From NCBI RefSeq assembly GCF_032716425.1, contig NZ_CP090419.1, forward strand, positions 1,413,001 to 1,477,000: a stretch of DNA of 64,000 nucleotides. The letters run 5' to 3'. Below the pieces are notes generated by a model. It saw only the letters and a program-made list of their open reading frames with translations, was not told the DNA's origin and ran no database searches. Made by a program: the position numbers and the translations under genes. Below, piece by piece: positions 46,810 through 50,118 of this stretch. The stretch is from Pseudoalteromonas sp. N1230-9 (GTDB lineage Bacteria; Pseudomonadota; Gammaproteobacteria; Enterobacterales; Alteromonadaceae). Each line of letters starts with the position of its first letter. Position 1 is the first letter of the stretch.

Positions 46810-47559
46810 TCAAAAGAGTTTAACTAAATAAACAGTACTCATACCAATGAGTAATGTCACAGAAACGCTTAATAAAGTGCCAAGCATGACATACTCTGTG
46901 AGTTGTTTTTCTTCGCTCGCTTTTAAATCTCCAAAGCGAAAGATTGATTTTGCAGCGAGTAGGAATCCTACTCCTGCATATTCACCCATAAGTATAAAGC
47001 TTAGCATCAGTCCTCGCTCTAAAAGCCCTATACTGTGGCCAGCTGCAGGAATGCTGCCAGATGTAGCAAAGCCTTGTGTGATTTTTTCAAGCATCATGCG
47101 AATAAATACTGAGCTTGGATTTAATACGAGTATATAAGCACAGATAACAAAAAGAGTATCTATAGCAATTAGTTTTTGCCAAATAAGCGCATAAAATTCA
47201 TCATAATCGGTTAACCATACAGCTAGCATCACCAGCACAATACTATGTGCAAGCTGATCAAGTAGAAATGGAACGACCCCTTTATTGGAATAGGATTTTG
47301 CTAAATCAATGAGGAAGTGACTAAGCATAATTAGCAGTGTTGCGCAGACAACACGTGCAAGCTCATTCCAGCCATAATTAAACTCCCAAAGAGCTAAAAT
47401 GATAAACGAAACAATGCCGTGTGTTAAAACATGCAAATACAACTTTGTTGCGCGAAAGTGTCGGCTGTTTCGGTCATTAACCCAGCTCATTGGCTGTAGA
47501 TAAAAGTCAGCAACCAAGTGTGCTAAAAATAGGGCGACAAGTAATAAGGTAAAGCTCAT
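46810..47559 (-). CDS. DUF3307 membrane protein
   Basis: The 249-residue protein has about seven hydrophobic helices and begins 'MSFTLLLVALFLAHLVADFYLQP', the characteristic DUF3307 start with conserved His/Asp in 'AHLVADFYLQP' and 'MLSHFLIDLAKS'. The histidine and aspartate pairs inside membrane helices recall metal-dependent membrane hydrolases, but no activity is known to me. Its ATG overlaps the satD-like stop by 4 nt, so the two are translationally coupled and presumably functionally linked. Confidence 0.85.
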   Translation of the reverse strand: MSFTLLLVALFLAHLVADFYLQPMSWVNDRNSRHFRATKLYLHVLTHGIVSFIILALWEFNYGWNELARVVCATLLIMLSHFLIDLAKSYSNKGVVPFLLDQLAHSIVLVMLAVWLTDYDEFYALIWQKLIAIDTLFVICAYILVLNPSSVFIRMMLEKITQGFATSGSIPAAGHSIGLLERGLMLSFILMGEYAGVGFLLAAKSIFRFGDLKASEEKQLTEYVMLGTLLSVSVTLLIGMSTVYLVKLF

Positions 47560-48173
47560 GCTATCAATCCTTTGAGTGTTGTATGGCTGTACTTGATAAA
47601 ACGTTCGACTAATTGGTACTGAGCAAGGTTTAGTAATTTGGTCACATTTTCTCTGCTTGTATTGAGCTCTTTTGCTAGTTCTGCGTGGCTATTATTGCTT
47701 GCTGTAAGGTAATTAAATAAAGCATTCGCTTGTTTTTGGCTCATCTTCTCTAGCAATACCTCTATTAAGGCAATATTGAGTAAAAATCCTTCATCGAGAT
47801 GATTATTTTCCACTTTTATTGTTAACAGCTGATGAGTCATATTATCTAAGCCCTGACCGGATAACGTATACGCACTTCCTGTGGCTGTTTTTATATCGGC
47901 GCGAGGATTATCGACTGTGCCAATGGCCATACTTTGACGTAATTCATAGTTAGCGGCTTTCATTTGTAAATATAAGAGTATCGCTACATGACAGACAGAT
48001 TCTGGTGTTTGTAGCTGTAATTGCAAAGCATCACCACGATAAATGCTAAAACTACTTTCAAAGTGTTGAGTGATAAAACGTAAGCTTTGATCGAGTTGGT
48101 ATAGCATTGCATCGTATTCTTGTTGTGGGATTCTTTGTGATTTAATTAAATCTCCAGTGATCACCGCAATCAT
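47556..48173 (-). CDS. SatD-family protein (putative autoregulator)
   Basis: The 205-residue protein opens with 'MIAVITGDLIKSQRI' and 'FSIYRGDALQLQL', features of the SatD family, and ends with a winged helix-turn-helix-like segment ('ELAKELNTSRENVTKLLNLAQYQ', about residues 165-187). SatD was first named in streptococci (acid tolerance). The N-terminal part recalls nucleotide-cyclase/GGDEF-like folds ('GDLIKS', 'RGD'), though no activity is established. It is coupled to the DUF3307 gene. Three evenly spaced palindromes lie 17-90 bp upstream, so it may control its own operon. Confidence 0.8.
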   Translation of the reverse strand: MIAVITGDLIKSQRIPQQEYDAMLYQLDQSLRFITQHFESSFSIYRGDALQLQLQTPESVCHVAILLYLQMKAANYELRQSMAIGTVDNPRADIKTATGSAYTLSGQGLDNMTHQLLTIKVENNHLDEGFLLNIALIEVLLEKMSQKQANALFNYLTASNNSHAELAKELNTSRENVTKLLNLAQYQLVERFIKYSHTTLKGLIA

Positions 48174-48189
48174 AGCGCATCCTTTTACT

Positions 48190-48263
48190 GTAACTAAAAC
48201 TAGTTACTTGTTCATATGTAACCAAATTTGGTTACTGTTGTTCATGTAACCAATTTAGGTTAC
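48190..48263. repeat. Three 28-bp-period palindromic operators upstream of satD
   Basis: GTAACTAAAACTAGTTAC (48190-48207), GTAACCAAATTTGGTTAC (48218-48235) and GTAACCAATTTAGGTTAC (48246-48263) share the core GTAAC-N8-GTTAC. Starts are exactly 28 bp apart, and the two 10-bp spacers both contain TTGTTCAT, so the array is also a direct repeat. The position between satD and the divergent NYN gene suits an operator array bound cooperatively, possibly by the helix-turn-helix of SatD. Confidence 0.8.
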
Positions 48264-48326
48264 TTTTGAGTGAATTACAAGTAAGTCGTGCTACAGTAGC
48301 AAGATATAAATTATACAAGGTGTATT

Positions 48327-48830
48327 ATGCAAACAATTGAAAAGCCGAGAGTTGCTATCTTTGTCGACGTACAGAATATTTACTACACCTGTAAAGAAAG
48401 TTATGGAAAAAACTTCGATTACAACGCCTTTTGGGCAAAAATGCAGGAGCTGTATACAATTGATGGTGCTATTGCCTATGCAATTTATCGTGGCGATGAA
48501 AAGCAATCACAATTTCAAAATATTTTGCGAGCAATAGGCTTTGAAGTAAAACTTAAGCCGTTTATTCAGCGACGCGATGGCAGTGCAAAAGGCGATTGGG
48601 ATGTGGGTATTACTATTGATATGCTTGAAAATGCACGCAAAGTAGACAAAATGGTGTTGCTGTCTGGCGATGGTGACTTTGCATTGTTATTAGGGCATCT
48701 AGCACACAACTATCAAATTCCTTGTGATGTGTATGGGGCAGAACAATTGACTGCTGATGTACTAAAAAATGCGGCTGAGAATTTTTACTGTATCGACGAC
48801 GGCTTGTTACTTAATAACCGCAGAGAATAG
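48327..48830 (+). CDS. NYN-domain (PIN-like, LabA/DUF88) protein
   Basis: The 167-residue protein is a single NYN domain, the PIN-like fold of many RNases. The acidic residues expected for metal binding are present: D14 in 'FVDVQNIYY', D90/D92/D98 in 'KGDWDVGITIDM' and D115/D117 in 'LLSGDGDF'. RNA cleavage is therefore plausible, but the substrate is unknown. It is divergent from the satD-DUF3307 operon across 153 bp that include the triple operator, so it may be co-regulated. Confidence 0.88.
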   Translation: MQTIEKPRVAIFVDVQNIYYTCKESYGKNFDYNAFWAKMQELYTIDGAIAYAIYRGDEKQSQFQNILRAIGFEVKLKPFIQRRDGSAKGDWDVGITIDMLENARKVDKMVLLSGDGDFALLLGHLAHNYQIPCDVYGAEQLTADVLKNAAENFYCIDDGLLLNNRRE

Positions 48831-49203: not shown

Positions 49204-50118
49204 ATGATGGCGAAGAGTGTGAGTGAGGACCAATTGTTTATTGGTATCGATGGTGGCGGAACAAAGTGCCGAGCAACCATTTACTCTGTAAAACATGGCG
49301 TATTAGGGACAGGCTTAGGCGGTCCGGCAAATCCACTACATGGTTTGGAGCGCACACTTGAATCTATAATGGTCTCAACTCAATTAGCGTTGCGTGATGC
49401 TGGGTTGCCGTTAGAGACGGTACATCAACTCTATGCAGGTTTAGGCCTTGCAGGTGTTAACTTGCCGAGCCTATACGATAAAATTATGGAGTGGGAACAC
49501 CCGTTCAAACAAATGTTTTTAACGACTGACCTACATACGGCTTGTATAGGCGCTCATGAAGGCAGTGACGGTGCAGTCATTATCACAGGCACGGGCTCAT
49601 GCGGCTTTTCTTGTGTGAATGGGCAAACCACCAATTTTGGTGGCCATGGTTTTGCGTTAGGTGACAAAGGCAGCGGTGCCTGGATGGGACTTGAAGCGAT
49701 AAAAGCCACGCTGCTGGATTTAGATGGGTTAGGCTCAAAGACCTGTTTAACCAAAGTCATTACCGAACATTTCTCGGCTGATAACGCAATGGCGATTGTT
49801 GAGCAAATGTCAGGTCAACCATCTAGTAGTTATGCAAAACTTGCTCGCTATGTGTTTAATGCTGCAAATGAGCAAGATGCAGTGGCACTTGCTATTGTTA
49901 AAGACGGTGCAGAGTATGTGAGTAAACTTGCACACCGTTTATTAGAGAACAAACCACCACGTTTGTCTATGATAGGTGGGTTAGCTGAGCCATTAAATAA
50001 ATGGCTAGACCCTGATATCGCTAAGCTTGTAGAAAACCCAATTCAACCACCTGAAATGGGAGCAGTATATTTCGCACAACAGTCTGTGTTAGAACAAAGC
50101 CAAGAGGTAGCAATTTAA
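49204..50118 (+). CDS. nagK: N-acetylglucosamine kinase, BadF/BadG type
   Basis: The 304-residue cytosolic kinase phosphorylates GlcNAc to GlcNAc-6-P. The ASKHA phosphate loop 'FIGIDGGGTKCRATI' is near residues 12-26, followed by 'LTTDLHTACIGAHEG', 'VIITGTGSCGF' and 'GDKGSGAWMG', typical of the BadF/BadG/eukaryotic-type GlcNAc kinase rather than the ROK-type E. coli NagK. Marine gammaproteobacteria use this form. It heads the nag operon under a NagR-type operator; its TAA overlaps the nagA ATG by one base. ATG 49204 or 49207 could be the start. Confidence 0.92.
   Translation: MMAKSVSEDQLFIGIDGGGTKCRATIYSVKHGVLGTGLGGPANPLHGLERTLESIMVSTQLALRDAGLPLETVHQLYAGLGLAGVNLPSLYDKIMEWEHPFKQMFLTTDLHTACIGAHEGSDGAVIITGTGSCGFSCVNGQTTNFGGHGFALGDKGSGAWMGLEAIKATLLDLDGLGSKTCLTKVITEHFSADNAMAIVEQMSGQPSSSYAKLARYVFNAANEQDAVALAIVKDGAEYVSKLAHRLLENKPPRLSMIGGLAEPLNKWLDPDIAKLVENPIQPPEMGAVYFAQQSVLEQSQEVAI

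Follow-up and report, generated by a model that had tools for sequence, protein, structure and literature searches.

What binds the three GTAAC-N8-GTTAC palindromes in front of the satD gene of Pseudoalteromonas sp. N1230-9, and which genes do they control? The question arises from a 64,000-nucleotide (64-kb) stretch of this genome (hereafter the window), for which an original prediction, made from the letters alone, had proposed a cooperative, autoregulatory operator array serving satD, the adjoining DUF3307 gene and a divergent NYN gene. The dyads were confirmed as exact matches at 48190..48207, 48218..48235 and 48246..48263, the second being a perfect 18-bp palindrome, with start-to-start distances of 28 and 28 bp. 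The array lies 16 bp upstream of satD (47556..48173, minus strand), an open reading frame (ORF) of 205 amino acids (aa) encoding the predicted autoregulator, and between it and the NYN gene. On the whole, and with moderate confidence, we are inclined to regard SatD as an autoregulator that responds to a nucleotide, fills a phased array cooperatively and controls a multi-pass membrane protein, probably by repression.

With up to one mismatch, GTAACN8GTTAC occurred seven times in the window (shuffle mean 1.83; 1 of 100 shuffles reached 7), and the three array dyads were its only exact copies. The proposed genome scan, run on the 4.63-Mb genome (two contigs), returned eight exact dyads, namely the three of the array and five dispersed singles (three within ORFs of at least 100 aa, two outside), so that the window array was the sole one of its kind. 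Since the reversed control pattern gave four genome matches, the five single dyads are at chance level.

The distribution of the array was then compared with that of satD using a pair pattern, defined as two GTAAC-N8-GTTAC dyads 10 or 11 bp apart and run without reference to genes. A protein search placed satD in 49 of 295 genomes of the order. The pair pattern was present in 10 of the 295, all 10 of which carry satD with every match just upstream of it, and in none of the 246 genomes lacking satD (Fisher p = 7e-9). Among 108 Pseudoalteromonas genomes, 71 carry satD and 64 the pair pattern, corresponding to 64/71 genomes with satD and 0/37 without (p = 3e-22); among the matches listed, the coordinates adjoin satD. 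The reversed control of the pair pattern had no match in either genome set (295 of the order, 108 of the genus). In the genome collection searched, the nearest satD loci were those of Pseudoalteromonas (nine loci, 79–100% identity). Across 25 distinct Pseudoalteromonas arrays (30 loci), all 40 of 40 spacings were 28 bp, and the six middle spacer positions carried 0.02–0.65 bits; the "similar spacers" of the original prediction are therefore alike in their fixed length and not in their central sequence.

Upstream of divergent satD genes, palindromes other than the GTAAC type were found. A motif-free scan (dyad gap 4–12, period 20–40), in which neither motif nor period was preset, was applied to 59 upstream regions, that is, 67 satD loci minus near-identical and short ones. 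The results showed a best chain of period 28 in 38 regions and of period 29 in 15, amounting to 53 of the 59 non-redundant satD promoters, compared with 14 of 150 control regions upstream of other ORFs at the same loci (p = 2e-29; 150 of 262 controls used, 43 of them giving no chain, and one of the 14 matches being the genuine L080 array upstream of DUF3307). The corresponding figure from an earlier version of the scan, with dinucleotide shuffles, was 28/30. The script that set the start codons erred for at least L076, and three of the six misses were later accounted for: at L076 the array is present at the start codon that the script had misplaced, and at L080 and L081, which belong to another class, the array stands between satD and DUF3307 with period 29 and three and two dyads, respectively. 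Thirty arrays comprised three dyads, 17 comprised two and six were larger, and the median distance from array to start codon was 43 bp. The largest arrays, with nine dyads in L119 and ten in L122, extend far upstream. The L119 array (also L027) consists of nine near-identical dyads at 29 bp whose spacers mostly have a CTAG core. That of L122 (also L030) is mostly a 58-bp unit alternating two dyad/spacer types, with one 20-bp step, and looks like recent tandem growth.

Among plasmid and viral-contig loci, 6 of 10 carried a 28/29 chain (L126, L129, L130, L131, L133, L134), including loci from Segatella copri (Bacteroidota), Enterobacter kobei, Pseudomonas fragi (weak) and Vibrio lentus; the L130 chain scored only 18, with no array there when read from the annotated start. 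In L127 a weak dyad gave period 28; other periods came from L128, L135 and L136, and repeats seen by eye in L127, L135 and L136 are left out of the 6/10 count. The comparison of upstream regions thus placed sites at orthologous satD genes in at least two classes of the phylum and on one Segatella plasmid, so the lack of sites at orthologues that would have refuted the original prediction was not observed.

The half-sites, unlike the pitch, differ by clade, and they track the recognition helix of SatD. GTAAC half-sites occur with SRxN-type helices, GCAAA and GCAAG half-sites with two TRQN-type helices, TTAGCC half-sites with the helix ATVSKSLKAS, and ATACG half-sites with the helix QSRVSERLSR. 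Operator distance correlated with the distance of the helix-turn-helix (HTH) domain, given the distance of the N-terminal palm domain, at a partial r of 0.22, which was reached by 0 of 2000 permutations; the operators of L041, L108 and L110 entered this analysis in the register of an alternative dyad. Because the array moves to DUF3307 in two relatives, the half-sites follow the SatD helix and the distribution is tied to satD, SatD is very probably the binder of the array and satD–DUF3307 its target. Judged by sequence, SatD would have its cognate sites at its own operon, and the array distribution and helix-dependent half-sites support the operator role and autoregulation that had been proposed.

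SatD itself matches the Pfam family SatD (PF16264; named for the sat operon of Streptococcus mutans) at 21.8 bits over residues 2–109, below the 29-bit curated cut-off. In the relative set A2, 41 of 76 members match PF16264 at E ≤ 0.1, so the window protein is a divergent relative of the family; other relatives exceed the cut-off (P0121, 37.1 bits). The AlphaFold2 model (pLDDT 94.2) places C-terminal helices at residues 146–157, 163–169, 174–183 and 186–204, and among the 76 relatives Pfam matches (E ≤ 0.1) to sigma70 region 4 were present in 43 and to YlxM-like domains in 32; both lines of evidence support the C-terminal HTH that had been anticipated (residues 143–192; 47598..47747, minus strand). 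The N-terminal domain (residues 1–125; 47799..48173, minus strand) is predicted to have the palm fold of class III cyclases, as indicated by fold and profile matches (Ma1120, Rv1900c). Asp8 and Asp48 align with the two Asp residues of Ma1120 that bind metal and are kept in 75/75 and 76/76 relatives, respectively. For the transition-state and base-selecting residues, the hmmer alignment extends to profile position 93 only; Arg occupies position 107 in 53 of 76 relatives, and Gln in the window protein. The palm domain is probably nucleotide-binding. The original prediction contains neither the cyclase-like domain nor the clade-specific half-sites with their constant pitch, nor the relocated arrays.

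The presumed target, the DUF3307 gene (46810..47559, minus strand; 249 aa; PF11750, 103 bits), overlaps satD. Of 67 loci, 66 have DUF3307 as the same-strand neighbour of satD, in most cases overlapping it, and the remaining locus lies at a contig end; L072, L075 and L109, where the overlap of the DUF3307 ORF with satD is so large that the script reported it as upstream, were counted as adjacent. The DUF3307 model matched in 43 genomes of the order, 42 of which carry satD, the odd one being weak with an internal stop. Sixteen positions, several of them His, Asp, Glu or Arg, were invariant over 20 DUF3307 sequences. The protein is predicted to be an all-helical, multi-pass membrane protein, and its predicted fold gave no match in the Protein Data Bank (PDB). 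In L102 the DUF3307 region consists of two ORF pieces, perhaps a broken copy. The pair also travels on small replicons: in six 3,770-bp Escherichia/Klebsiella plasmids satD and DUF3307 make up nearly half of the record, and the one record examined also encodes Rop and MobA. L127 and L128 are small Escherichia/Klebsiella plasmids of 3.77 and 4.42 kb that carry essentially no cargo besides satD–DUF3307, with a longer DUF3307 of 332 aa. The window DUF3307 has a match to phrog_2470, a family of phage membrane proteins in the moron or host takeover category, and a DUF3307 ORF is listed for jumbo phage RsoM2USA (PMC8504454). SatD gave no match in the phage records searched.

From these data we infer a mechanism in which SatD, a DNA-binding regulator built from a cyclase-type palm and a C-terminal HTH, uses the array as its operator. 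SatD dimers would sit on 18-bp dyads spaced at 28 or 29 bp, each in contact with the next, and the row would fill cooperatively. The filled row would most likely shut the satD–DUF3307 promoter, and a nucleotide that the palm binds or turns over would decide whether the row forms, and hence when the DUF3307 membrane protein is produced. The recurrence of at least two sites at a fixed pitch argues for cooperative filling, and nearness to the start codon, together with arrays upstream of DUF3307, points to the pair as the target. We consider it highly likely that SatD is the binder of the array and the regulator of the pair and, given this, quite likely that it represses; a nucleotide as the input of SatD appears moderately likely.

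Several observations weigh against this mechanism. At 10.5 bp per turn, dimers 28 or 29 bp apart are turned by 240 or 274 degrees; because these distances are not whole helical turns, neighbouring dimers would not lie on one face, and their contacts would run round the helix, presumably via the palms. A sigma-70 consensus promoter was not found in 48100–48400 (0; shuffle mean 1.2), which makes an overlap of array and promoter hypothetical and repression a likelihood only. By eye, SatD has Ala101 in place of the transition-state Asn of cyclases, an argument against ordinary cyclase activity. Operator distance also correlated with palm distance given the HTH (0.16), and since the HTH and palm protein distances are themselves correlated (0.80), part of the covariation is due to phylogeny. 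Finally, the motif-free scan found no 28/29 array at L088, L114 and L120 of the 59-region set or at L128, L135 and L136 of the plasmid and viral-contig set.

These points bear on the alternatives to different degrees. SatD might bind the array and activate, or only set its own level with DUF3307 merely co-transcribed: the sign of regulation is unreadable from sequence, no promoter was placed by consensus, and the arrays of L119 and L122 reach far upstream, as activator sites can. Most arrays, however, end near the start codon and two stand upstream of DUF3307 itself, and we consider this reading rather unlikely. Binding by another protein, such as a global regulator, would suit a half-site of a common palindrome type and a SatD whose binding is predicted, yet the Pseudoalteromonas sp. 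N1230-9 genome has only one array, genomes without satD (0/37 and 0/246) have none, and the change of half-sites with the SatD helix argues against an unrelated global regulator; this makes such a binder very improbable.

An iteron-like site for replication or partition, to which SatD would bind, is equally improbable. The regular repeats, reaching nine or ten copies, and the presence of satD–DUF3307 on small plasmids are what such a site would predict, but the arrays mostly occupy chromosomal promoters, usually in two or three copies, the window array has no rep or par gene beside it, and the array moves with the DUF3307 promoter. On the small plasmid of L130, RepB lies some kilobases away. 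As for RNA hairpins, terminators or attenuators, two dyads of the window array score terminator-like on the plus strand (two found; shuffle mean 0.2). This strand is antisense to satD, and the fixed spacing, the clade-wise changes tracking a DNA-reading helix and the far-upstream arrays all point to DNA, so that a role in RNA is extremely improbable. Within the preferred reading of SatD as a cooperative autoregulator, a bolder extension would have the dyad row template an enzyme. The palms of neighbouring DNA-bound dimers could pair, as cyclase domains do head to tail, and a nucleotide signal would then arise, or be sensed, only on the operator filament; loss of the filament (e.g. under phage or plasmid stress) could release DUF3307. 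The pair would then be a mobile two-gene stress or defence switch with a DNA-templated nucleotide sensor. Taken as a whole, this extension is improbable.

The NYN-domain gene (48327..48830, plus strand; PF01936, 131 bits) was not borne out as part of the system. It is present in 107 of 108 Pseudoalteromonas genomes, including the 37 without satD. NYN adjoins satD in the 30 close loci inspected and lies on another contig or about 960 kb distant in G681, G709, G712 and G691; among the 67 satD loci, it was found beside satD only in the window and in L039–L047 and in none of the other 57. Because of its near-universal presence in the genus and its separation from satD in several genomes, the NYN gene is outside the satD–DUF3307 module. 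Of the suggested co-occurrence, the link between satD and DUF3307 held, and NYN occurs also without satD.

Tandem operators of self-regulators are known, and phage lambda CI is a self-regulator with three-part operators. SatD resembles CI in self-regulation, tandem dyads and presumed dimer–dimer cooperativity, and differs in its cyclase-type palm, its other HTH and a 28/29-bp pitch kept while the half-sites change. A palm–HTH regulator with a kept pitch but drifting half-sites appears to be new. Like class III nucleotide cyclases (Ma1120, Rv1900c), SatD has a predicted palm fold and Asp at both metal-binding positions, but its palm is fused to an HTH and apparently lacks the transition-state Asn, and we know of no cyclase activity of SatD. 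Panoptes defence pairs likewise encode a palm or cyclase protein with an effector, maybe a membrane protein, and satD–DUF3307 also occurs on plasmids; Pycsar pairs, a palm or cyclase protein with an effector, share this likeness. The satD pair differs from both in its HTH and operator array, and PADLOC 2.0.0 (six proteins scanned) gave only weak HTH-region cross-matches for SatD and no match for DUF3307. To our knowledge, no phage phenotype of satD–DUF3307 has been described. In the open-licence papers searched, SatD was nowhere described as binding DNA, and neither its operators nor a cyclase-type fold was reported.

Streptococcal satD is known from an acid-tolerance operon (PMC12077213, PMC11323703), and in Streptococcus pyogenes it is essential in the strains tested, yet only 178 of 249 complete genomes carry it (PMC11323703). 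This pattern fits a restraint on something harmful, and the proposed circuit would suggest why a streptococcal satD can be essential only where present. More broadly, a gene pair that had lacked an explanation, here seen across at least two classes of a single phylum and also on one Bacteroidota plasmid, becomes a testable circuit with a binder, a binding code, a target and candidate ligands. A transcription factor sensing through a cyclase-type palm, with an operator pitch that outlives its sequence, would be unusual, and the natural helix/half-site pairs offer a ready series for DNA-recognition studies.

Elsewhere in the window, 49204–50118 holds an N-acetylglucosamine kinase gene (NagK_SO3507 model), and the next ORFs resemble nagA and nagB by eye.
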